A DNA stretch of 64,000 nt from Desulfofarcimen acetoxidans DSM 771 (GTDB lineage: Bacteria; Bacillota; Desulfotomaculia; Desulfotomaculales; Desulfofarciminaceae), in assembly GCF_000024205.1 (NCBI RefSeq), contig NC_013216.1, positions 3,844,001 to 3,908,000 on the forward strand. Direction: 5' to 3'. This document shows, one piece after another, positions 4,862 to 61,026 of the stretch. Under the pieces are notes generated by a model. It searched no databases. It was not told where the DNA came from and saw only the letters and a program-made list of their open reading frames with translations. A program made the translations under genes and the position numbers. Numbering within the stretch: position 1 is the stretch's first letter; each line of letters starts with the position of its first letter.

Positions 4862-5025
4862 CCATTACACTGTTAATCAGCCAAAACCTTGATGCAAATA
4901 TAGGTACCACATATGATATTTACGGCCACATGTTAAAATCAAAAGATAAAGAAACGGCCGAAAAGATAGACCAGTTTCTCAATTCAGCCAAAACAGAACC
5001 AGAACGCAAAAAAGGGCAGGCCTAA
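4862..5025 (+). pseudogene. Tyrosine recombinase, C-terminal scrap (element A integrase)
   Basis: The last ~50 residues of a phage-type integrase: NIGTTYDIYGHMLKSKDKETAEKIDQFL...ERKKGQA, containing the catalytic Tyr in TYDIYGH. The end KKGQA is identical to that of the integrase at 5481-6650. The stop codon lies inside a hairpin (AGGGCAGGCCTAAAAACCTGTCC) followed by T residues, again like that gene. It is followed 200 nt later by the att copy at 5232, as expected for the integrase end of an element. Confidence 0.7.
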
Positions 5026-5468: not shown

Positions 5469-5498
5469 AAAGGACAGGTTTTAAGCCTGTCCTTTTTT
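5469..5498. terminator. Terminator at the integrase stop codon
   Basis: AAAGGACAGG...CCTGTCCTTT, about 11 bp, with a T run on both strands; it contains the integrase stop codon. It works for the minus-strand integrase operon. Confidence 0.75.
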
Positions 5499-6650
5499 TC
5501 GTGTGGTTAAAATATCATTCATTTTATTGGCTGCTTCTGCATCAACAGACTTAAAACTGTGGGCATAAATATTTAGGGTTGTGTTGGGTGAACTATGACC
5601 CAGGCGGCTGGCTATATTTTTAAGCGGGATACCGGCCTTAATCATGTAGCTGGCTGCAGTATGGCGCAAACCATGAAAAGGCAATGGAGACAGGTTGTTG
5701 TTTTTTAGAAAACCACTAAACCATTTTGTTATACTGTCCGGGTGCATCGGTTTTCCGTCCCAGGTAGTAAATAGTCTATCTGAGGCTTGCCACAGGCCGC
5801 CTACTTGTAAACGCTGCTCATTTTGCTGTACTCTGTGCTGTTTTAATAGCGACATTGTTTCTGTAGGAACGGCAATAATGCGTTCTGAGCTTTCATTCTT
5901 AGGTGACTTTGCAAACGTACCATGACCGGGTAGGTACTGGCTGGACTGTCTTACCTCCAGTGTACCTTTTGTGAGATCAATGTCCTTCCATTCCAGGCCC
6001 ATGATCTCACCGCGACGAAGACCACAACCAAGGGCAATATAAACAATTGCCTGGAACTTTAGCGGCTGTTCCTCCAATGCACTGAGTAAAGCTGCAGTGT
6101 CTTCTTCCTCATAGGAAGTAGCCTTATGCTTTTTGGCCTTGGGTGCCTCCACACGTAGGGCGGGATTGGTAAGGATTATTTGCCATTTAACGGCTGCATT
6201 GAATATATTGGTCAGCAGTCGGTGGTGATAAAGGACAGTAGCTGGCGATAATGTACCTTCTTTGCCATCCTCCCTTATACCGGGTTCTTGTAAATTGCCA
6301 TAAAACTGCATTATATGAAATGGCTTAATGTCTTCAATCTTAAGGTGCCCCATTGCCGGTAATATTCGGGAGTTTAATATCTCCTTATACCGATATAAGG
6401 TTTTTGGTGCTAAGTCCTTTTTGCTTTCAAGCCATTTTTGACTGAACTCTTTGAAAGTTAATTTTGATGGTGCGATATACTGGCCCTTTTGGACTTCAGC
6501 AGAGAAAACGTCCAGCAGTTTTTTAGCTTCGCGCTCACTGGTAGCTTCAACTACTTTTCTGTGAGTGATACGTTTTCCATCCGGGCCAGTCCCATCAGGG
6601 ACATTTAATCGCCATTTGTTTTTACCACGAGATTCAACCCAGCCGGCCAT
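5481..6650 (-). CDS. Phage-type tyrosine integrase (left end of element B)
   Basis: A 389-residue integrase with the usual order: an AP2-like/arm-binding N-terminal domain (GKNKWRLNVPDG...KRITHRKVVEAT), a SAM-like core-binding domain (TFKEFSQKWLESKKDLAPKTLYRYKEIL), and a catalytic domain with Arg in GCGLRRGEIMGLEW, HxxR in FHGLRHTAASYM, and Tyr in TTLNIYAHSF. All catalytic residues are present, so it may be active. It integrates element DNA at a tRNA 3' end. Its start overlaps the stop of the zinc-finger gene upstream (TAATG), so the two form an operon. Its downstream end faces att A with arm-type boxes between. Confidence 0.93.
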   Translation of the reverse strand: MAGWVESRGKNKWRLNVPDGTGPDGKRITHRKVVEATSEREAKKLLDVFSAEVQKGQYIAPSKLTFKEFSQKWLESKKDLAPKTLYRYKEILNSRILPAMGHLKIEDIKPFHIMQFYGNLQEPGIREDGKEGTLSPATVLYHHRLLTNIFNAAVKWQIILTNPALRVEAPKAKKHKATSYEEEDTAALLSALEEQPLKFQAIVYIALGCGLRRGEIMGLEWKDIDLTKGTLEVRQSSQYLPGHGTFAKSPKNESSERIIAVPTETMSLLKQHRVQQNEQRLQVGGLWQASDRLFTTWDGKPMHPDSITKWFSGFLKNNNLSPLPFHGLRHTAASYMIKAGIPLKNIASRLGHSSPNTTLNIYAHSFKSVDAEAANKMNDILTTRKKGQA

Positions 6651-9980: not shown

Positions 9981-10471
9981 AAAAGAGAATAAAAGAGGAA
10001 TTGCCAGAGGTTACAATTGTTAAGCTCTTTCTAAAATCAATTCAGGACAATAACACTGAAACCTTTTGGAATCTGTTAAGCAATAGCGGTCAAAGTTTTT
10101 TAAAAGGAACTTTTCTATCAAGAGGATGTATTACCCTGTCTGAGATTAACGGGAATGTACCGGAAATATGCAAAGAGCAGTTAGAAGAATTAATTTCAAT
10201 ATATAAAGAAAAAATCGGCAGTGGTTATATTGATAACCCTGGCATATGCGATACACCCAGGGAGGATACCATTCTACGCAGTAGGATATTAGTAATTCCA
10301 GATGTAAAATGCCCTATAAACATACTAAAAGAAACACAAATGATAGGCAGACACATTCCTGTTATACGTGAACTATTGGAGCCAGAGCCAGGTGACGGGT
10401 ATGGTCAATGTCGTATTGCCTGGAAAATTGACTATCTTAAGCTGATAGAGGGGTGGGGAGTAATCGTTTAA
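9977..10471 (+). CDS. Hypothetical protein, 164 residues
   Basis: Starts at an ATGA overlap with the tape-measure remnant, so it belongs to the same transcript. Soluble, mixed charge, no signal or membrane segment, two Cys in the middle (ICDTPREDT, VKCPINI). I do not recognise a domain. The position after the tape-measure gene could make it a tail-associated protein or a later cargo gene. Confidence 0.5.
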   Translation: MKKRIKEELPEVTIVKLFLKSIQDNNTETFWNLLSNSGQSFLKGTFLSRGCITLSEINGNVPEICKEQLEELISIYKEKIGSGYIDNPGICDTPREDTILRSRILVIPDVKCPINILKETQMIGRHIPVIRELLEPEPGDGYGQCRIAWKIDYLKLIEGWGVIV

Positions 10472-10539
10472 TTTTATAAAAACCCTGTTTTATTTCCTCT
10501 CCCAGCGGAAGTTAAATAATGTGTTCTTGCTCGCCGACT

Positions 10540-10730
10540 ATGGAGAGTCAATAATAACTGTGTGTCAGATAAAAGGTTGGTTGTCACAACCGACCTTTAT
10601 ACTTGGATGACACATCCATAAACTCACTCCGCAGATTTGCGGAACTACTTTCCCGATTTGAAATCGGAAAACCTGTATACCAGCGATTCAGTTTAATTAC
10701 TAACATAGGAGAGTAAGCTAGCTTCATAAT
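10540..10730 (+). ncRNA. Candidate structured RNA with nested hairpins
   Basis: No gene fits here, but the sequence folds strongly. TGTGTCA (10561-10567) pairs with TGACACA (10608-10614) around a 12-bp hairpin (10572-10598, AAAGGTTGGTTG with its inverse). Then follow TCCGCA/TGCGGA (10628-10643) and CCGATTT/AAATCGG (10653-10667), and after 60 nt a terminator. Strand and function are unknown; a small RNA ending at the terminator is one reading. Confidence 0.4.
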
Positions 10731-10762
10731 AAAAAATCCCGGTTATGCCGGGTTATTTTTTA
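10731..10762. terminator. Bidirectional terminator
   Basis: AAAAAATcCCGGttatgCCGGGttATTTTTT, a short GC stem with A/T runs on both sides. It ends the minus-strand coiled-coil gene and possibly a plus-strand RNA. Confidence 0.75.
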
Positions 10763-11002
10763 TCGTATAACCATTTTTTCTAAATTAGTAATTCTATCAT
10801 CAAAGTTACCAATATCCTTCCATGATTCCTTTAATTCTTTTCTGATTAGGGTAACATCTCTTTGGAGTTTTTTCTGGCCCTTATCTAATGTATCAAGGCG
10901 AGTTTTAACTTCTTGTCGGAACTCCTGGAACTCTTGACGCACCGGTTGTAATTCCTCCTGGATAATAGAGCGAAGCATATTAGCTAATTCACTGTTTGGC
11001 AT
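10760..11002 (-). CDS. Small coiled-coil protein
   Basis: 80 residues, almost entirely heptad-like: LRSIIQEELQPVRQEFQEFRQEVKTRLDTLDKGQKKLQRDVTLIRKELKESWKDIGNFDDRITNLEK. Similar in size and style to the protein at 17513-17791. Such short coiled coils are frequent beside phage repressors and metallopeptidases, without a known biochemical role. AGGAGG lies upstream of the ATG. It is probably the second gene after the RHH gene at 11033-11191. Confidence 0.65.
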   Translation of the reverse strand: MPNSELANMLRSIIQEELQPVRQEFQEFRQEVKTRLDTLDKGQKKLQRDVTLIRKELKESWKDIGNFDDRITNLEKMVIR

Positions 11003-14660: not shown

Positions 14661-14674
14661 CCCCTTAATTGATT

Positions 14675-15457: not shown

Positions 15458-16684
15458 CTATCCCCTGTCCGACCTGTAAAGCTGGTTCTTTGAAAGTAAG
15501 GAAAAAACCAGCCTTACAAACTTCCTAGCTGTAAGAACCTGAGCTCGTTTATGGGCATGTTTTTTTGATTCTTGAAATTTTTTTTGATAGTAAGCTCGGT
15601 ACTCGTCATTATGTCTCCTCAAACTGTCCGCAGCTTCTATCAGATAATACCTGAGATACCGGTTTCCAGCCCTATTCAGGGGTTTATCTTCACCGTCAAA
15701 TTCGCCGGATTGATTGCTATTCCAGGTGATACCTGAAAATTTAGCTAACTGGGACTGATCTTCGAACTTGTTAATATCCCCAATTTCAGAGATAATGCCG
15801 GCGGAAAACACTGGCCCAATTCCCTTGATTGACATCAATGGATTCGAGAGCTTGGCCATATCCCTGGCAATCACACTGTCCAATTTGCGGATGGTTTGCT
15901 CAAAAAAGCGGATATTATTCATACTGGTTTCAAGAATCAGATTAACCGAATCCGTGAGCTTCGGACTCATCCGGTAGGATTCACGGCAAATTCGTTTTAG
16001 CTCAGTAGCCAATGTTTCAGGGTTAGAAAATTGCTTATTTCCTTTATCCACAAGCAATTGAACCAAGTCTTCAAGTGGTGTATTAATAATTTCTTCCGGG
16101 CCAAAAAAATCGGTAATAATAGACATGCTGGTGGCTCCAAAGATATCACTGAATACATCACCATAATTACTAAATTTCATAAACAACATAGTTAAAAAAT
16201 AACTTTTTTCTCGCACAAGTGAACCCACCAGGTGAAACCTGTAACGGGTCAGTCGCTGTAGCGGAAGATACATCTCATCAACCTCGTAAGGTTTAGGTAA
16301 TCTGCCGTGTCTTAGTTTTTCAGCTATGATATAAGCGTCATATGCATCGTTCTTGCCCTTTGGAGGATAAGACTTCTTGAAGTTCTTGATACTTCTGGCA
16401 TTGAGTTGGTAAACTGTAGGCCTGTATGGCTTTAATTCTTCGGTGATTAGTAAATAATTCATCAAGTGAAAGTGGTATAAAGAAGTAGCTTCCATTCCAA
16501 AAACAACATGATCAAAGCTATCTTTAATCGATAACTCTTTAGTTTTAGATGCCAAACTCTCGGCACCTGAAATGGAGTTATCGAAAACTAACTTTTTCAA
16601 CAAAATCGTTCCGTCTAATTTCATAAAGCAAGCCACATTCTTATTCTTACCAATATCAATGCCAACATGCAAGGATATTGTCAT
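15458..16684 (-). CDS. IS110-family transposase (RuvC-like DEDD recombinase)
   Basis: 408 residues, full length. N-terminal DEDD domain: HVGIDIGKNKN (first Asp), GMEATSLYH (Glu), KNDAYDAYIIAE (two Asp). C-terminal transposase_20 domain: LMSIKGIGPVFSAGIISEIGDINKFEDQSQLAKFSGI, with the serine of NRAGNRYLRYYLIEAA-type region nearby. IS110 enzymes recombine a circular intermediate into a target guided by a bridge RNA. The 5' untranslated end of this gene is long and highly structured, as required by that model. Appears intact. Confidence 0.93.
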   Translation of the reverse strand: MTISLHVGIDIGKNKNVACFMKLDGTILLKKLVFDNSISGAESLASKTKELSIKDSFDHVVFGMEATSLYHFHLMNYLLITEELKPYRPTVYQLNARSIKNFKKSYPPKGKNDAYDAYIIAEKLRHGRLPKPYEVDEMYLPLQRLTRYRFHLVGSLVREKSYFLTMLFMKFSNYGDVFSDIFGATSMSIITDFFGPEEIINTPLEDLVQLLVDKGNKQFSNPETLATELKRICRESYRMSPKLTDSVNLILETSMNNIRFFEQTIRKLDSVIARDMAKLSNPLMSIKGIGPVFSAGIISEIGDINKFEDQSQLAKFSGITWNSNQSGEFDGEDKPLNRAGNRYLRYYLIEAADSLRRHNDEYRAYYQKKFQESKKHAHKRAQVLTARKFVRLVFSLLSKNQLYRSDRG

Positions 16685-16704
16685 AAAAACACCTCTGGTA
16701 AGTG

Positions 16705-16850
16705 GATTAACTTTTCCGTTTTCTACGCGAGAACATCCTCGTAATCAGAACTGACATGGAGCGGGAGACTACCTGGATCTGCTGCCATCCAGGTCAACTA
16801 TCATGCTGAACAGGCTAGGTGTTAGAACTAAAACGTAGAAGGAAAAGAAA
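16705..16850 (-). ncRNA. Candidate IS110 bridge RNA
   Basis: Upstream of the transposase. CTTTTCC and TTCTACG (16711-16727) pair with CGTAGAA and GGAAAAG (16834-16847) as a closing stem. Inside are ACCTGGAT/ATCCAGGT (16771-16794) and CGAG/CTCG (about 16728-16740). Nested stem-loops in the left end are the known layout of the bridge RNA in this family; which loops are target- and donor-binding cannot be told without the native ends. Confidence 0.55.
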
Positions 16851-16870
16851 CATACTTTATTAAGCAGTCT

Positions 16871-17512
16871 ATGCTGCTCGGGGTATTGAGAATTTACCAT
16901 CTTACCGGGATCATTCTAACTAAATGATTATTTAAATTGCTTATTTCATCAAACATTGACAGACAGGCACCTAAAAAGTACTATCTAAACCATTGTAAAT
17001 TATAGCACTCTTTAAAGAAAGTTGACAACACCACTCCCCCGGGTTTAAACAGCCTCACGTAAATCAGAATTGCTAAGCAAACATTCTAAGTGTCAGAATC
17101 AAACCCTGACGGGGAAAGAGAAACAGACTTAAAAAGCATTGTGGATATCACCACATGCGAGGAGGACTGATGAATTCATCTTACTAATTTTTCAGTGTGG
17201 GCTGTCTCTTTGAAAATGATTTGCCTGTGGATATTTTTCTGTCAATAAAATTTTCGGTTCGTATAGACATCACCATCCTATCATTGATTGGGTACCTTGG
17301 CGCAACTACTTCCAATAAGTAACCCACATGCAGTAATTCACGTGATTAATAGGTACCTTTACTGCATTGTTGTGGTATTGTTATTGACTTCATCAAACCC
17401 AGGTACCCTTGATATGGGAACCGGTTCCCTGAACATCCGGACCACAACATTCTACTATTTTAGAACATGTCGTATTCGGTTGTTCTGACTCTATTATACG
17501 AGGAGGATAACT
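16871..17512. other. Intergenic region between IS110 and the coiled-coil gene
   Basis: No gene seen. GGTACC-centred words recur at about 17291, 17351 and 17402; GGGAACCGGTTCCC at 17417-17430 is a 14-bp perfect palindrome. The ribosome binding site GAGGAGG lies at 17501-17507. Confidence 0.4.
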
Positions 17513-17791
17513 ATGACCAATGAACAGTTTCAAGAACTCGTAATAAATCACCTTAAAGCACTAACAAACGAAGTAAAAGAAATTAAATCAAATCAACACA
17601 AACTTGAACTACACATTGAAACAGAAGTTACCGATAAAATTAGAAGTCTTTATGAGTTCCGCGAAGTTCAGGCAAATGTCAATGAGCGTATCCTTGCAGC
17701 ATTAGATCGTATTGAATCTAAGGTAGAAACTCACGATATTCAGATTTCAATACTGGACAAAACTAAATCTAACAAGCGCAAGGTTAAGTGA
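17513..17791 (+). CDS. Small coiled-coil protein
   Basis: 92 residues, heptad pattern over most of its length (HLKALTNEVKEIKSNQHKLELHIETEVTDKIRSLYEFREVQANVNERILAALDRIESKVETHDIQISILDK), basic tail. GAGGAGG 6 nt before the ATG. It is of the same type as the protein at 10760-11002 and is near an XRE switch in the same way. Confidence 0.7.
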   Translation: MTNEQFQELVINHLKALTNEVKEIKSNQHKLELHIETEVTDKIRSLYEFREVQANVNERILAALDRIESKVETHDIQISILDKTKSNKRKVK

Positions 17792-17825
17792 TATTTAATA
17801 ATTTTCCCTTCTTTTGGGATAGAAT

Positions 17826-17984
17826 CTAAGGTGCCAGATCACTCATTGCCTGCGCACAGTCTTCGCATATAAACGTTCCATCCTCAAGAGCTAATGTGCC
17901 GGTAAGTTCTTTACAGCAGACACATTCATGCTTTTGCTTTTTCTGTTGCTTCCGGCGTTGTTTTCTCTTTTTAGGTTTAGTCAC
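17826..17984 (-). CDS. Small basic zinc-ribbon protein
   Basis: 52 residues from a GTG with AAGGGAGGTG upstream. A highly basic start (KPKKRKQRRKQQKKQKH) is followed by CVCC...CEDC, one zinc site. It starts 5 nt after the stop of the HTH gene at 17990, so the two are co-transcribed. Probably a nucleic-acid-binding accessory protein. Short enough to be missed by gene callers. Confidence 0.65.
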   Translation of the reverse strand: MTKPKKRKQRRKQQKKQKHECVCCKELTGTLALEDGTFICEDCAQAMSDLAP

Positions 17985-17989
17985 CTCCC

Positions 17990-18262
17990 TCACCTCCCTT
18001 CTGTGCCGGTTAGGTTAAGTATTGGCATCGACACAGATTTATTAATGGCATCTATAACGGATTTCGTTAGTTCATCATCAAAAAAAACAGCCGGTTCAAC
18101 ACTTAGCGCACTTGCTATTACTTTTAGTCTCTCAACGTCTAAACGTGTATTACCTAACATAATATGACGATAACCTTGTAAGGATAACTTTAACCTATTA
18201 GCAAGATAAGTTCTTGTAACCCCTTTAGCTTCTCTAATTTTTTCTACGTTTTCATGTACCAC
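17990..18262 (-). CDS. HTH regulator, XRE-like
   Basis: 90 residues: VEKIREAKGVTRTYLANRLKLSLQGYRHIMLGNTRLDVERLKVIASALSVEPAVFFDDELT, a Cro/C1-type HTH with a short tail. It is divergent from another XRE gene at 18443 with shared operators between. It and the downstream zinc-ribbon gene form the minus-strand side of a third regulatory switch in element B. Confidence 0.78.
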   Translation of the reverse strand: MVHENVEKIREAKGVTRTYLANRLKLSLQGYRHIMLGNTRLDVERLKVIASALSVEPAVFFDDELTKSVIDAINKSVSMPILNLTGTEGR

Positions 18263-18289
18263 TATTAAAACACCTCCAGTTGTATTACT

Positions 18290-18402
18290 AATTAACGAAT
18301 TCTGTTAGTAATATTATACTAACGAATATCGTTATAGTCAACACTAAACATTATACTTCTCTCAAATTTCGTTATAAGTATATCAAATTACGTTAGTCGC
18401 TG
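18290..18402. promoter_or_regulatory. TAACGAA operators of the 18.3-kb switch
   Basis: TAACGAATTCTGTTA (about 18292-18306) and TAACGAATATCGTTA (about 18321-18335, a perfect palindrome), with further half-sites TTTCGTTATAA (about 18367) and TACGTTAGT (about 18387). They lie between the divergent XRE genes and overlap both promoter areas. Confidence 0.65.
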
Positions 18403-18442
18403 TTACTATTATATTTAGTAACATTTTGTGAGGGATAAATTT

Positions 18443-18844
18443 ATGAATATAGGTAATAGAATTAGAACACAAAGAATATTAAAGGATTTTACACAAAAAC
18501 AATTAGCTGAACTTGTTAATGTTTCACCGCAAGTTATTTCTAATTGGGAGCGTGGATATACTCCAGTAATACCTCATGATGATGTTGTGAGATTAGCAGA
18601 TGCACTTGGTATCTCTCCTGCCTATCTTTTGTGTGAAACTGACATCAGTGAAACACCAGAACAGCAAATAGAATCTGCCATCAATGATGATGCCGATCTA
18701 TTGGAATTTTGGCATGAATTAAAAAAGAGAGATGATTTGCAACTTCTTTTTAAGCAAGTTAAACCGTTATCACCTAAATCAATAAAGAAGATAATTAAAG
18801 TAATCAAGGTTATTGAAGATGAGGAAGCTATGGAAGATTTATAA
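18443..18844 (+). CDS. XRE-family repressor
   Basis: 133 residues: HTH (GNRIRTQRILKDFTQKQLAELVNVSPQVISNWERGYTPVIPHDDVVRLADALGISPAYLL) and a helical tail of about 65 residues (EFWHELKKRDDLQLLFKQVKPLSPKSIKKIIKVIKVIEDEE), the shape of many ImmA-controlled repressors. ATG at 18443 chosen, with GAGGG upstream; a GTG at 18428 is possible. The vapBC-like pair and an ImmA gene follow on the same strand, so the repressor-protease pair is linked. Confidence 0.83.
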   Translation: MNIGNRIRTQRILKDFTQKQLAELVNVSPQVISNWERGYTPVIPHDDVVRLADALGISPAYLLCETDISETPEQQIESAINDDADLLEFWHELKKRDDLQLLFKQVKPLSPKSIKKIIKVIKVIEDEEAMEDL

Positions 18845-18866
18845 TAAAAGAAAGGAGGATAAGAAG

Positions 18867-19025
18867 ATGATAAAGCAGCAGACATATAAGCTTACCAAAA
18901 GAAAACCAAGAACCATCATTTTTTCGATAATAGATAAGCATAAAGTTAAAAAAGAACTGACTGCTTTCCGCTCTCTAATTGGTATGTGGGAAAATAAAGA
19001 TACCAGCTTCTTTGACAAGAAATGA
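18867..19025 (+). CDS. Putative antitoxin of the PIN-domain pair
   Basis: 52 basic residues with AAAGGAGG 8 nt before the ATG: IKQQTYKLTKRKPRTIIFSIIDKHKVKKELTAFRSLIGMWENKDTSFFDKK. Its end overlaps the toxin start (ATGA). A short protein directly coupled to a PIN-domain gene is most likely its antitoxin. The tail (SLIGMWENKDTSFFDKK) resembles the toxin-binding tail of VapB proteins, but no DNA-binding fold is obvious. Confidence 0.6.
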   Translation: MIKQQTYKLTKRKPRTIIFSIIDKHKVKKELTAFRSLIGMWENKDTSFFDKK

Positions 19026-19492
19026 GCGGAATTCTTTTAGATACGGTGATAATAATTGATTTTTTGCGGGCATTCCGTAGCTCAAGACCAAAAAGTAAAG
19101 AACATAAATATCATTCAGAAAAAGCAATAGAGTTAATTGAGGATTTAATAGAAAAAAGGATACCACGATACATATCATGCCACACAATAAAAGAGCTTCT
19201 ACAATATCCATATATATCTGAGCAAGAAGAAGCCAGAATTGATACTATGCTACCACAGTTTATTAAAATTTTACCGACTACCATGAAGGTTGCTAAGGTA
19301 GCTGGATACTTTTCCCGACAGTCAGCAGAATACAGAGAACATCATATAGAAGACTGCTATATAGCAGCTGCTGCTGTTACATATAACCTATCACTATACA
19401 CCAGAAATCCCGATGACTATAAGTATGTTGAACATGCAAATCTAAAAGTAACAGTACCCTACCAATACCAACCGTCAGTCAGTAGAGATTAA
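19022..19492 (+). CDS. VapC-like PIN-domain ribonuclease toxin
   Basis: 156 residues. PIN signature: first Asp in GILLDTVIIIDFLR, Glu in TIKELLQ, and the closing acidic group in HHIEDCYIAAAAVTYNLSLYTRNPDDYKYV. VapC toxins cut tRNA or rRNA in a Mg-dependent way. It overlaps the small upstream gene by 4 nt. The ~25-residue insert after the first strand (SSRPKSKEHKYHSEKAIE) is longer than usual but falls in a loop. Confidence 0.85.
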   Translation: MSGILLDTVIIIDFLRAFRSSRPKSKEHKYHSEKAIELIEDLIEKRIPRYISCHTIKELLQYPYISEQEEARIDTMLPQFIKILPTTMKVAKVAGYFSRQSAEYREHHIEDCYIAAAAVTYNLSLYTRNPDDYKYVEHANLKVTVPYQYQPSVSRD

Positions 19493-19525
19493 AGTAATCC
19501 TGCATACCTAACAGGAAGTGAAGAT

Positions 19526-19879
19526 TTGAATAAATATAAAAATAAATATGCAGTTATACGTGCTATGTTAAGCGGTACCATGGACCAGGATGAAGTTATG
19601 CTGGCTTATGGTATAATACCGAAGTTAGCTGAACTGGCGCATGATGTAGCAGCTTTTGTTTACCGCTCCAGAAAAGACAGATTTTACATAATAGTTAATC
19701 AATATCTTAGCCAAGAAACAAGAAAAGCTGTATTTTTTCATGAGCTCTGTCACATTATTAGGGACATGCCCGCCGCTGGCTATATTCTTGGCTTAAATAG
19801 GCAGAGAAGTCCAATTGAAAAGAGGGCTGATTTATTTATAAAAGAAGTAGCAGCAGCATTTAACACCCATAACGGGTGA
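19526..19879 (+). CDS. ImmA/IrrE-like metallopeptidase
   Basis: 117 residues from a TTG start (AGGAAG upstream). HELCH in VFFHELCHIIRDMP and the E of IEKRADLFIKEVAAAF give the M78 zinc site. It differs strongly from the other ImmA genes in the window. It lies in the same transcript direction as the XRE repressor at 18443, and its natural target could be that repressor. The C-terminus ends just after the zinc-binding helix, so the domain is minimal. Confidence 0.8.
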   Translation: MNKYKNKYAVIRAMLSGTMDQDEVMLAYGIIPKLAELAHDVAAFVYRSRKDRFYIIVNQYLSQETRKAVFFHELCHIIRDMPAAGYILGLNRQRSPIEKRADLFIKEVAAAFNTHNG

Positions 19880-19990
19880 TTTTGTGTTTTAGGGGTGATT
19901 CGACAAAATATTATTAAGTTATGAACTTAGTTTTATAGTGAAAGCAAAAGGAGGGTTGGAGTTAGAATTCATAAAAGGAGGGTTTGTATT

Positions 19991-20641
19991 TTGAAACTAA
20001 AAAGAGGCATAGTCTTCTTTCTCATGTTGGGGTTACTGTTAATGCTGCCAGTTCCAGCCATGGCTACCCCAAAAGTTATATTGGATGGCAATCAGCTATC
20101 ATTTGATGTATCACCTACAATTGAAAACGACAGAACTTTGGTACCACTTAGAACAATATTTGAAGCCCTTGGCGCAGATGTTAATTGGAATGGGACAACC
20201 CAAACCGTGACCGCAACTAAGGATAATGTTGAGGTAAAACTGCAAATTGGGGTAAAAACTGCTTATAAGAATGGCTCTCCTGTTACCCTTGACGTACCGG
20301 CTAAGATTATGAATGATAGGACAGTAGTACCGCTACGCTTTGTAAGTGAGGCTTTTGGATCTAACGTAGCTTGGGACGCATCAACGCAAACTATAACTAT
20401 TACTTCTATAACAGCAGTACCTGCAGTTACTGGACAAATTAAAGTTACTCCTCAGTCACAATCACAACAAGAACTATCTGTCACTCAAGGCCAATTTGTA
20501 GGCAGTACCGAATCAAACAAATACCATTCTCCTGATTGCAGATATGTCGAAAAAATTGCTCCCGAAAATAAGATTTGGTTTAAAGATGCCGTCGATGCCG
20601 AGGCACATGAATATGTACCTTGTGGAGTATGTAAACCATAA
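19991..20641 (+). CDS. Secreted copper-amine-oxidase N-terminal domain protein
   Basis: 216 residues from a TTG start with AAAGGAGGG upstream. Signal peptide: MKLKRGIVFFLMLGLLLMLPVPAMA. Two beta-rich repeats follow (ENDRTLVPLRTIFEALGADVNWN, NDRTVVPLRFVSEAFGSNVAWD), the Cu_amine_oxidN1 domain that is very common on the surface of this clostridial group. The C-terminal 45 residues (NKYHSPDCRYV...YVPCGVCKP) look like the small Cys-containing metal-binding domain found in Ada and secreted nucleases. Role: probably cell-wall associated; ligand unknown. Confidence 0.8.
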   Translation: MKLKRGIVFFLMLGLLLMLPVPAMATPKVILDGNQLSFDVSPTIENDRTLVPLRTIFEALGADVNWNGTTQTVTATKDNVEVKLQIGVKTAYKNGSPVTLDVPAKIMNDRTVVPLRFVSEAFGSNVAWDASTQTITITSITAVPAVTGQIKVTPQSQSQQELSVTQGQFVGSTESNKYHSPDCRYVEKIAPENKIWFKDAVDAEAHEYVPCGVCKP

Positions 20642-20652
20642 TATAACAATTA

Positions 20653-20675
20653 GCCCGGCCTTGTGGCCGAGTTTG
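20653..20675 (+). terminator. Terminator after the secreted protein
   Basis: CGGCCTTGTGGCCG stem, weakly followed by AGTTTGATTT. Confidence 0.5.
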
Positions 20676-20681
20676 ATTTAA

Positions 20682-20697
20682 TATTCCACGTGGAATA
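20682..20697. repeat. 16-bp palindrome resembling parS
   Basis: TATTCCACGTGGAATA, perfect. It differs from the ParB site TGTTTCACGTGAAACA at four symmetric positions. No parA/parB gene is in the window. A half-match (TATTCCACGTGATATA) is at 4020. Confidence 0.4.
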
Positions 20698-21823
20698 ATC
20701 CCGAATCACTGCCGGCAAGGTCGGGTGGACACAAACAGTATGCATAAAAGAGGTGATAGTTACGGGAGGCGTAAACGGCGGCTACCTAAGAAAGAAGGGT
20801 AAAGACAAGTGGGAAATAGTTGTGGAAGCAGGGAAAGATTCGGCTACCGGCATAAGAAAACGGATCAGTAAAACATTCAACGGATCGGAAAAAGCGGCAA
20901 AAAACGAGCTCGATCGTATAAAAAACGAAGTTAAACAGGCAACATATATTCCACCAACCAAAATGAACCTGCAGCAGTACCTTGAAAAGTGGATGGGGTT
21001 CCAGAAGGACAAGCTGGCCCCCCGGACATATCAGCGGTATCAACAAATAATTGACCTTAGGATTATACCGGCACTAGGCAAGATTATCCTGGAAGAATTA
21101 AAACCTATGCAGCTCCAAGAGTTTTATGCCAAGCTTAAAAAGTCTCCTCGTCTTGACGGTAAAGAAGGCACTCTATCGTTGGACACAATTATGTACCACC
21201 ATAGAATCCTAAGAGTTGCGCTTAATCAGGCAGTAAAATGGCAGATGATCGGCAGAAACCCGGCAGACGCTGTTGACACTCCAAAACAAAAAAGAAATCA
21301 GTTTACCGCCCTAGATGGGAATCAAACAAAGAGACTATTGGAATTGGCAGAAGGATCGCAACACTATCTGGCTTTGCTCTTAGCTCTAAGTACCGGTCTT
21401 AGAAGAGGTGAGATATACGGCCTACGATGGAAGGATATTGACTTCCACCACAAAACATTAACAGTTAATCAGGCAGTAAAGTATTTACCTGGTCAACCTC
21501 TTATTTTTGGCCCACCAAAGAACGATTTCAGTCGGAGAACTATTCCGCTGCCTCAGAAGGTATTTGATGCTTTTCAAGAGCGCAAAATAGCGCAGGATAA
21601 AATGAAAAAGAGGCTAGAATATGCCTATAGCGACAATGACCTTATTTTATGCCAAGAGGACGGATCTCCTACCCACCCTGACACTATTTCATCATGGTTT
21701 CAGAAGTTTATTAATAAACATTCTGGCTCAAATAAAAAAGAGTCTACTGACTGCATTACTCAGCAAGCAAACTCCAATAAAACAGTAAATTTACCAAAAA
21801 TAAGATTTCATGATCTAAGTTAT

Positions 21824-47804: not shown

Positions 47805-48345
47805 ATGTTAAATAAAGAAACTGTACTGTTAATAAAATTTATGAAGAAGTAAATAATATATTATGGTTAAGGTGTGCACCAGACCAACTCCTTACAAGAA
47901 TATGATAAGTCAGTATTGCCTCGATTATTTAAGCGTAATGAAAAAGTTTTAGGTAGATTTAGTTCCATGACCGTTATGGTCATGGAAGTTGGAGTAATTC
48001 AAAACAGCAGAGATTTATCTGTATTATGAAAGAATTGAGTATGACCGGAGCGCACTTCACCAGCTATTAAAAAGAAATGAGGCAGTTTTAGGTAGATTTG
48101 CTTCCATGGTTATGATAACCATGGAAGCAGGGCTTCGTGAAATGGTTTGTCTTAATCGTGATGGTGTTATCGGCCTATTAATGAAAATGGACTTTAGTCG
48201 CATCAGGGACGAGAGTAAGCGTCAAACCATCGTCGATTTTCAGGTATGGGCTATAGAAACACTTGGCCGCATTATGGACAGCGATATACCTCAGCAAGAA
48301 TTTCCTTTTGTTTGGAATAATCATAGTGGATACCAGATTCGTTGA
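47805..48345 (+). pseudogene. Decayed, internally duplicated hypothetical gene
   Basis: Starts MLNKETV after GGAGAG but loses frame at once. A first block (EYDKSVLPRLFKRNEKVLGRFSSMTVMVMEVG, about 47898-47992) and a second (EYDRSALHQLLKRNEAVLGRFASMVMITMEAGLREMV, from about 48034) are tandem copies of the same segment. The second continues to 48345 (FSRIRDESKRQTIVDFQVWAIETLGRIMDSDIPQQ). The start of this gene type is also seen, cut, at 12751 in element B. Confidence 0.55.
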
Positions 48346-48714: not shown

Positions 48715-48746
48715 CAAAGGGTGTATGTTTAACATACACCCTTTTA
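48715..48746 (+). terminator. Strong terminator
   Basis: AAAGGGTGTATGTT / AACATACACCCTTTT, 14-bp stem with a one-base loop and T tract. Confidence 0.85.
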
Positions 48747-60607: not shown

Positions 60608-60792
60608 TCCCTTTATTATTCCTTATTTTAAGTCCGTCTTCTCCAGACAGAACACCTATTCAAATATTAAATTGACTGGTTAAAACCAAAAAACCCTGTT
60701 ACCGGAAAGGTGACAAGGCATACGAGGCACCCGCATACACAGGTACGATGGATTTCACCTCCCTATCTTTCGTAGATCAACGGCAAATTTAA

Positions 60793-60955
60793 AACGGGCA
60801 GGTTTCCTGGCTTAAGGTCATCACTCCCTCACGCCTTCCCAGACTCAAAAAAGAACCGGTGGCTTGTGTGAGTTTGCTACCTATCACAGTGGCGGGACCG
60901 CGTCAGCACTTCTGAACTTCCCTTAAGTTTTGCAATGCAAAACACCCGTTTACTA
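60793..60955 (-). promoter_or_regulatory. Cobalamin riboswitch
   Basis: On the minus strand: AAGGGAAG, then GCTGACGCGGTCCCGCCACTG, ATAGG, GTGAGGGAGTGATGACC and the B12 box AAGCCAGGAAACCTGCC (60795-60811). All main conserved blocks of the class are present. It is in front of cbiMNQO and should turn expression off when adenosyl- or other cobalamins are abundant. Confidence 0.93.
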
Positions 60956-61026
60956 TATGGAATTAATTTAACTACATGCTAACACATTTTTATGAATGTG
61001 TCTATGCCTATTTCTAAATCAAAATA

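Follow-up and report, generated by a model that had tools for sequence, protein, structure and literature searches.

The O protein of phage lambda binds iterons in gene O, and the Rickettsia palindromic elements are inverted repeats inside protein-coding genes. Iterons ITN1-4 of lambda are repeated 18-bp replication sites inside gene O, and plasmids carrying lambda oop with iterons ITN3-4 exclude lambda (PMC3349717). There are two further kinds of palindrome: the mitochondria of nematomorphs contain numerous inverted repeats in protein-coding genes, up to 284 bp long (PMC6649704), and REP and GTAG- and CGTC-tagged palindromes of 20-40 bp are found in prokaryotes (PMC3733652).

At the locus described here, palindromes b, c and e of the window (the whole 64-kb stretch of DNA that was analyzed) correspond to the predicted wing-coding part of the genes for Phage_pRha regulators (PF09669), whereas the window itself has no intact rha gene and no match to the protein. 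Rha-like regulators are common in phages and satellites. The likeness to lambda gene O lies in a candidate DNA site within the gene of a phage DNA-binding protein, with binding at rha something that we infer; however, lambda has four iterons and an AT-rich stretch, whereas rha has one dyad of ∼27 bp per gene, with a sequence specific to the phage. The nematomorph repeats are many and long, in contrast to the single short dyad with covarying arms at one place of one gene family, and REPs are high-copy, whereas Rha-type dyads have few copies and many sequences. A search of titles and the starts of abstracts, with subscription journals mostly outside it, found no account of a palindrome inside rha, which is weak evidence that the internal dyad is previously undescribed; nor did the literature so searched yield anything on what Rha-like regulators bind.

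The palindrome array and its surroundings

The hairpins and the terminator that the original prediction described in a stretch without a gene are present: a scan found the inverted repeats, as five palindromes and one terminator, and the ORF list has no open reading frame of at least 60 aa between 10471 and 10760. The accompanying claim, that palindrome density is much above the surroundings, was not borne out, as four other 500-bp bins of the window are equal or richer in hairpins (5, 4, 3 and 3 in the bins at 5000, 43500, 9500 and 28500, against 3 in the array's bin at 10500), and the densest 110-bp palindrome stretch of the window is at 14671 rather than at the array. The elements of the locus are:

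10494-10511, + strand: motif D, TTCCTCTCCCAGCGGAAG, a weak dyad, also found in related arrays
10572-10598, + strand: dyad b, AAAGGTTGGTTGTCACAACCGACCTTT; reads KVGCHNRPL (compare KVGYHNQPM of a phage Rha gene)
10598-10624, + strand: dyad c, center 10611, core TGGATGACACATCCA at 10604-10618
10628-10643, + strand: dyad d, TCCGCAGATTTGCGGA, a stem, without a match to phage Rha genes
10647-10673, + strand: dyad e, ACTTTCCCGATTTGAAATCGGAAAACC, stem 10649-10671; reads RFEIGKP or PDLKSEN, as phage Rha genes do
10573-10698, + strand: open frame across all four dyads b-e, KVGCHNRPLYLDDTSINSLRRFAELLSRFEIGKPVYQRFSLI, with stops upstream
10738-10752, - strand: terminator stem, found by scan, belonging to the opposite-strand coiled-coil gene

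The arms of b lie at 10572-10584/10586-10598 (13 nt, 92%), those of e at 10649-10659/10661-10671 (11 nt, 91%) and those of c at 10604-10609/10613-10618. The outer arms of 7 bp that had been proposed are also present (10561-10567/10608-10614) and overlap hairpin c; they found no support among relatives in comparisons that were not aimed at these arms. Motif D is situated just upstream of 10540, where the original prediction had the array begin. The array strand folds better than all 200 of its dinucleotide shuffles (z -4.7), and the opposite strand has a fold z of -4.1. Frame 0 of the array has no stop and reads KVGCHNRPL in b, YLDDTSIN in c, SLRRFAEL in d and LSRFEIGKP in e; the LDDTSIN of dyad c may be compared with MDDTSKN and LDVTSKY of phage Rha genes. 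This frame was traced only as far as 10700, and an open stretch of 42 codons is by itself unremarkable. The center-to-center distances are 26 nt from b to c, 24.5 nt from c to d and 24.5 nt from d to e. We dropped a tiling of dyads at ∼25 nt as a general rule, since among nine arrays, the window's included, only 4 of 22 spacings were of 22-32 nt.

A terminator-like stem does exist, but we assign it to the minus-strand gene at 10760-11002 and exclude it from the array, because it lies downstream of that gene and recurs behind the gene's two paralogues. These two further copies of gene and terminator are in the same genome (loci L002 and L003); palindromes e and d follow the L002 copy, and an IS200-like insertion follows the L003 copy (the labels coiled-coil and IS200 come from reading translations by eye). 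The paralogous small genes (window 10760-11002, L002 1176-1511 and L003 1185-1511) share a common terminator, and the IS200-like transposase seems to start behind the third of them, in L003. A phage capsid gene and the remnant of a tape-measure gene precede the array, and a phage-type integrase gene occupies 5481-6650 of the window. Further along are an IS110-like transposase gene (15458-16684, named by eye), whose first 114 codons equal the copy beside L002, a cobalamin riboswitch on the minus strand (60780-60964) and two more long near-perfect palindromes, at 48099-48129 and 48716-48744.

A dyad inside phage rha genes

Rha genes were fetched by a protein pattern encoded downstream of the palindrome, blind to palindromes. 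The best 80 of 451 relatives in viral contigs comprised 72 distinct genes (7 were duplicates and one locus lacked a usable motif), of which 67 remained at an identity limit of 85%, and in each of these the 75 nt upstream of the LNEQQ codons were scored. The best hairpin score had a mean of 19.2 at this site, versus 11.5 after synonymous recoding of the same gene and 11.1 over 354 control windows. A score of at least 18 was reached by 43/67 rha genes as compared to 10/354 control windows of the same genes (Mann-Whitney p = 4e-28 on the scores) and missed by 24/67; 45/67 genes exceeded their own synonymous null at 5%, and 22/67 did not. The dyad lies ∼50-60 nt upstream of the LNEQQ codons: two adjacent 10-nt bins at the site hold palindromes scoring at least 15 in 43% and 36% of the 67 genes, and each of the other 48 bins does so in at most 4%.

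The two arms of these dyads covary. Among 54 odd-center dyads, 84% of arm positions pair, versus 49% when the arms of different genes are exchanged (maximum of 500 such trials, 55%), although these figures are inflated because the dyads were chosen as the best hairpin near the site; the hairpin-score comparison, the bin profile and the scan of named phages below are free of that selection. All four Watson-Crick pair types occur at offsets 5-7 and 9-12, and pairing is at least 80% at offsets 1-7 and 9-12 and 57% at offset 8. The dyad center falls in codon phases 0, 1 and 2 in 34, 8 and 15 of 57 dyads, several of the 8 phase-1 centers being apparent off-site picks. On the coding strand, the stems of the 57 dyads contain 10 G·T, 22 A·C and 38 other mismatches among 627 positions, and in some genes (L126, L132 and L138) the outer arms pair without a pairing center. 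Because the arms vary yet pair, the reading frames differ and there is no preference for G·U, the feature looks like a DNA dyad and not an RNA hairpin.

The AlphaFold2 model from 37 aligned Rha proteins has a pLDDT of 93 and an order of helices 16-23, 27-36 and 38-42 followed by strands 48-52 and 61-66, which we read as a winged helix whose wing is formed by the two strands. The dyad codes for about residues 48-57 of the modeled protein, which comprise the first strand and the turn. A Foldseek search of the PDB gave a single match below E 0.001, the DNA-binding protein DdrC (E 7e-4), with a weak superposition (TM 0.35, rmsd 15.1); the replication terminator protein and operator-bound PadR came up without significance (E 0.75 to 2.8), and no convincing solved relative was found by sequence (best E 0.11).

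We then have the dyads of named phages, scored with a pair model of the 27-bp site trained on 57 phage rha dyads. Two query proteins gave 234 and 247 Rha-like matches in phage records, of which 151 (by first word) and 146 were Streptococcus; the Streptococcus rows listed are satellite phages, and among those listed for the 234-record query the Rha-like protein is mostly annotated as a hypothetical protein. Twelve named records, five of them Streptococcus satellites, were taken for host diversity from the 100 matches listed. In 12/12, the site of the fetched locus that the model scores highest falls within codons 49-58 of the Rha-like gene and reaches 11.0 to 32.0 bits, versus 0.5 to 10.4 for the next best elsewhere in the locus; weak sites are those of Javan125 (11.0 bits) and Ab69 (13.5, versus 10.4 elsewhere), and Javan442, whose gene is broken into annotated pieces, was counted by reading through its stop. 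The sequence of the site varies within a host group, as seen, for example, in the Streptococcus satellites and in a pair of Gordonia phages. Eight phage genomes (one lacking bases 1-2,999) were searched for a further copy of their own dyad, and in none did the strongest other match score above the best in shuffled genomes, so that there is no operator elsewhere in those genomes; iterated copies within rha were not seen. In 7/8 phages, a gene annotated as repressor, cro or HTH regulator is found within ∼2.5 kb of the Rha-like gene; the exception, Salmonella phage 118970_sal4, has the Rha-like gene flanked by genes for lysis and head.

Counterparts and recurrence of the window dyads

Over the 64 kb of the window, e (26.9 bits) and b (26.0 bits) are the top two sites of the pair model, with 30 shuffles reaching at most 18.2, and dyad c has only 9.8 bits. 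In a reduced model, from which the 44 of 57 training dyads with at least 17/27 bases identical to b, c or e were removed, b stays first with 22.8 bits versus at most 17.4 in 100 shuffles, whereas e drops to 15.8 bits and fifth rank, the 95th percentile of the shuffles being 16.1. The ordinary hairpins at 48730 (19.8) and 5482 (17.8) are also above all shuffles, so the reduced model fails to tell Rha dyads and ordinary hairpins apart; the palindromes at 48099-48129 and 48716-48744 score 15.1 and 15.8 bits in the full model and 16.9 and 19.8 in the reduced one. When a score above the shuffles in the pair model is taken to define a Rha-type dyad, b and e belong, of which only b does so with the reduced model, and d and D do not; c falls short on score, yet two Rha genes match it directly. 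Base by base, e agrees with the Rha gene of L122 at 24/27 positions and b with those of L126, L132 and L134 at 22/27 (control stretches at most 16 in both cases), and the core of c agrees with L123 at 15/15 and with L127 at 14/15 (control stretches at most 11). At the site of the 67 Rha genes, d reaches at most 11/16 bases, under the control maximum of 14, and motif D has no counterpart above control; d and D were thus not borne out as Rha dyads. A tblastn search with Rha proteins gave no match to the window array at E≤0.05, and PF09669 has no match in the array's own genome, and for this reason we term the units in the window dyad relics rather than an rha gene.

With its flanks left free, the e palindrome occurs in 21 viral-contig stretches, two near-duplicate pairs included. 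Thirteen of them are within an ORF of 221-247 aa and the other 8 are not in such an ORF; the inner place is identical in 12 of the 13 ORFs, the exception being L090, with e at the ORF start. When ten of these ORFs were scanned, all ten matched phrog_2657 (transcriptional regulator) and nine phrog_518 (Rha-like), and a Pfam scan of nine e-bearing ORFs and the gene of genome G080 returned Phage_pRha in 10/10, of which nine exceed the curated cut-off and L084 does not. Three viral contigs have the c palindrome: two of them (the same gene) at the corresponding place within a Rha gene, and the third between genes. Comparison of the array's DNA with phage and plasmid records at E≤1 gave short matches only, one of which, in Gordonia phage GMA4, is the dyad of its Rha-like gene.

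Single palindromes of the array recur in noncoding, phage-like regions of other Desulfotomaculales. When 299 bases spanning the array were compared with 100 related genomes, 5 other genomes had short matches, of which one fell on the terminator and four on palindromes (d/e, D, D and e). The exact e core has 7 sites in 4/113 genomes of the order, in G080 inside a Rha gene; it is at 2 places in its own genome, which is not the many copies per genome of a REP or other high-copy repeat. Motif D with at most 1 mismatch is in 4/113 genomes of the order, versus 2/113 for a reversed control pattern, and in G032 it is upstream of the Rha relic HHTITRKIRDFYPDFEELGN; in 84,980 genomes it matched two Desulfotomaculales records and had four other genome matches, and in viral contigs there was one match, within an ORF. 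We took the four other genome matches and the viral one as chance, the genome flanks being coding-like by eye and the viral match lying within an ORF.

Several of the places of recurrence are clusters of palindromes in shifting combinations. Dyad d adjoins e both in the second locus of its own genome and in genome G036, and the densest cluster, in G076, has 23 hairpins within 1.5 kb, of which only 2 of ∼23 reach at least 14 bits in the Rha dyad model. Further cores, CACCCGGTG and GACAAAATGTC, are found in G076 on contig C40 at ∼16200-21100 (L077 14188-18999 and L071 1-1560). Relics of Rha protein occur in an array of G032 (83% over 35 aa, E 2e-18) and in that of G036 (64% over 44 aa, E 8e-19), a second G032 array has a Rha protein match of 82% over 17 aa, and near the first is a gene piece with a dyad and an LNEPQAT motif. 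A 34-bp unit with palindrome c, 88% identical, has opposite orientations in two arrays of G032 (L031 15264-15297 and L067 14913-14946).

Possible readers of the dyad and origins of the array

We conclude from these sequence comparisons that b, c and e are probably copies or relics of a dyad internal to rha, a putative site in duplex DNA that is most simply read by Rha. The dyad in rha would then be a candidate protein-binding site in duplex DNA, and its simplest reader would be Rha, which would bind as a dimer within the gene that encodes it; the lambda iterons in gene O, as an analogue, make Rha the natural candidate. Were Rha to read the dyad in its own gene, site and reader would travel together, like lambda O and its iterons. 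A symmetry that is kept over sequence, at one place, in several frames and without a second copy fits a co-evolving reader of a duplex site. The earlier suggestion of an origin-type or protein-binding site comes near to this reading, which differs from it by the tie to a phage regulator gene. An array with three kinds of Rha dyad and no intact gene is most simply a decayed prophage relic, consistent with the adjoining phage capsid gene and tape-measure remnant, although decay of separate genes does not account for dyads side by side ∼25 nt apart.

Alternatively, one could envision a replication, partition or recombination site in rha whose reader is not Rha but a different protein, of the phage or of the host. 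The lambda ori in gene O is a precedent for sites within replication genes (PMC3349717), and the lack of a second copy in 8 genomes would fit such a site. However, iterated copies within rha were not seen, and the sequence differs among phages of one host group (the Streptococcus satellites and the two Gordonia phages), so that the reader must change too, which fits Rha better than a host protein; we therefore regard another reader as rather unlikely. The dyads might also be mobile palindromic elements, akin to Rickettsia palindromic elements or REPs, that entered the rha linker and intergenic DNA and built up the arrays. Such elements would account for differing palindromes in differing frames at one place of rha, for several palindrome types adjacent in arrays and for the inversion of the 34-bp unit with palindrome c between the two arrays of G032, but would hardly be expected to leave 8 phage genomes without a further copy of the dyad and an exact e core at only those 7 sites in 4/113 genomes of the order, or arms that covary as for a conserved site, and this explanation seems to us doubtful to about the same degree.

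It is less likely still that the hairpins act in a transcript, whether as a small RNA, a leader or an rha mRNA hairpin for translation or decay. The folds are strong (z -4.7 and -4.1) and the arms of the Rha-gene dyads covary, both as a structured RNA would have it; but an RNA stem would be expected to tolerate G·U first, whereas A·C mismatches outnumber G·T by 22 to 10, and in L126, L132 and L138 the outer arms pair without the center. Rfam 15 has no match at the place of the array at gathering score, and of nine Rfam matches with E≤5 at 10400-10850, none is near its own cut-off; the small RNA that the original prediction had proposed is thus not supported. Its integron-like site seems unlikely from the pattern of conservation: attC sites have conserved outer core sites and a variable center, whereas within a palindrome class of the related arrays the center is kept and the arms are variable. 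That the dyad is a by-product of protein sequence or of chance we consider highly improbable. Some cores do read as recurrent motifs (GFEIR and TDLKS), but the synonymous-codon null has a mean of 11.5 versus 19.2 observed, the palindrome is read in differing frames and off-site bins stay at or below 4%.

If Rha is indeed the reader, one could go further and speculate that Rha is a self-contained specificity module and the array a decoy bank that titrates the Rha of incoming phages, or a set of silent specificity cassettes, a proposal to which we give little credence. The DNA coding for the wing would be the dyad that the wing helps to read, and a change of the site would thus alter its reader. 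A decoy role is entertained because of the lambda exclusion by plasmids with oop and iterons ITN3-4, and rests on that analogy.

A covarying dyad at a fixed place of rha offers one candidate site per phage, predictable from sequence alone. If Rha does read it, a DNA-binding protein would here clearly have a binding site embedded in its own coding sequence, with a bearing on recombination and on the evolution of phage specificities. For annotation, the dyads account for certain hairpin clusters of prophage remnants that might otherwise pass for an sRNA.

The same phenomenon is perhaps present in a second gene family, although no relatives of these ParB-like genes were found for a parallel palindrome test. 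Near the G076 array are decayed ParB-like gene copies in which the linker (GQNVP) is a palindrome, and ParB-like gene pieces of three genomes (L033 10678-10695, L024 5541-5556 and L036 2123-2146) have a palindrome around QNF codons, with outer arms that differ in one of the three.
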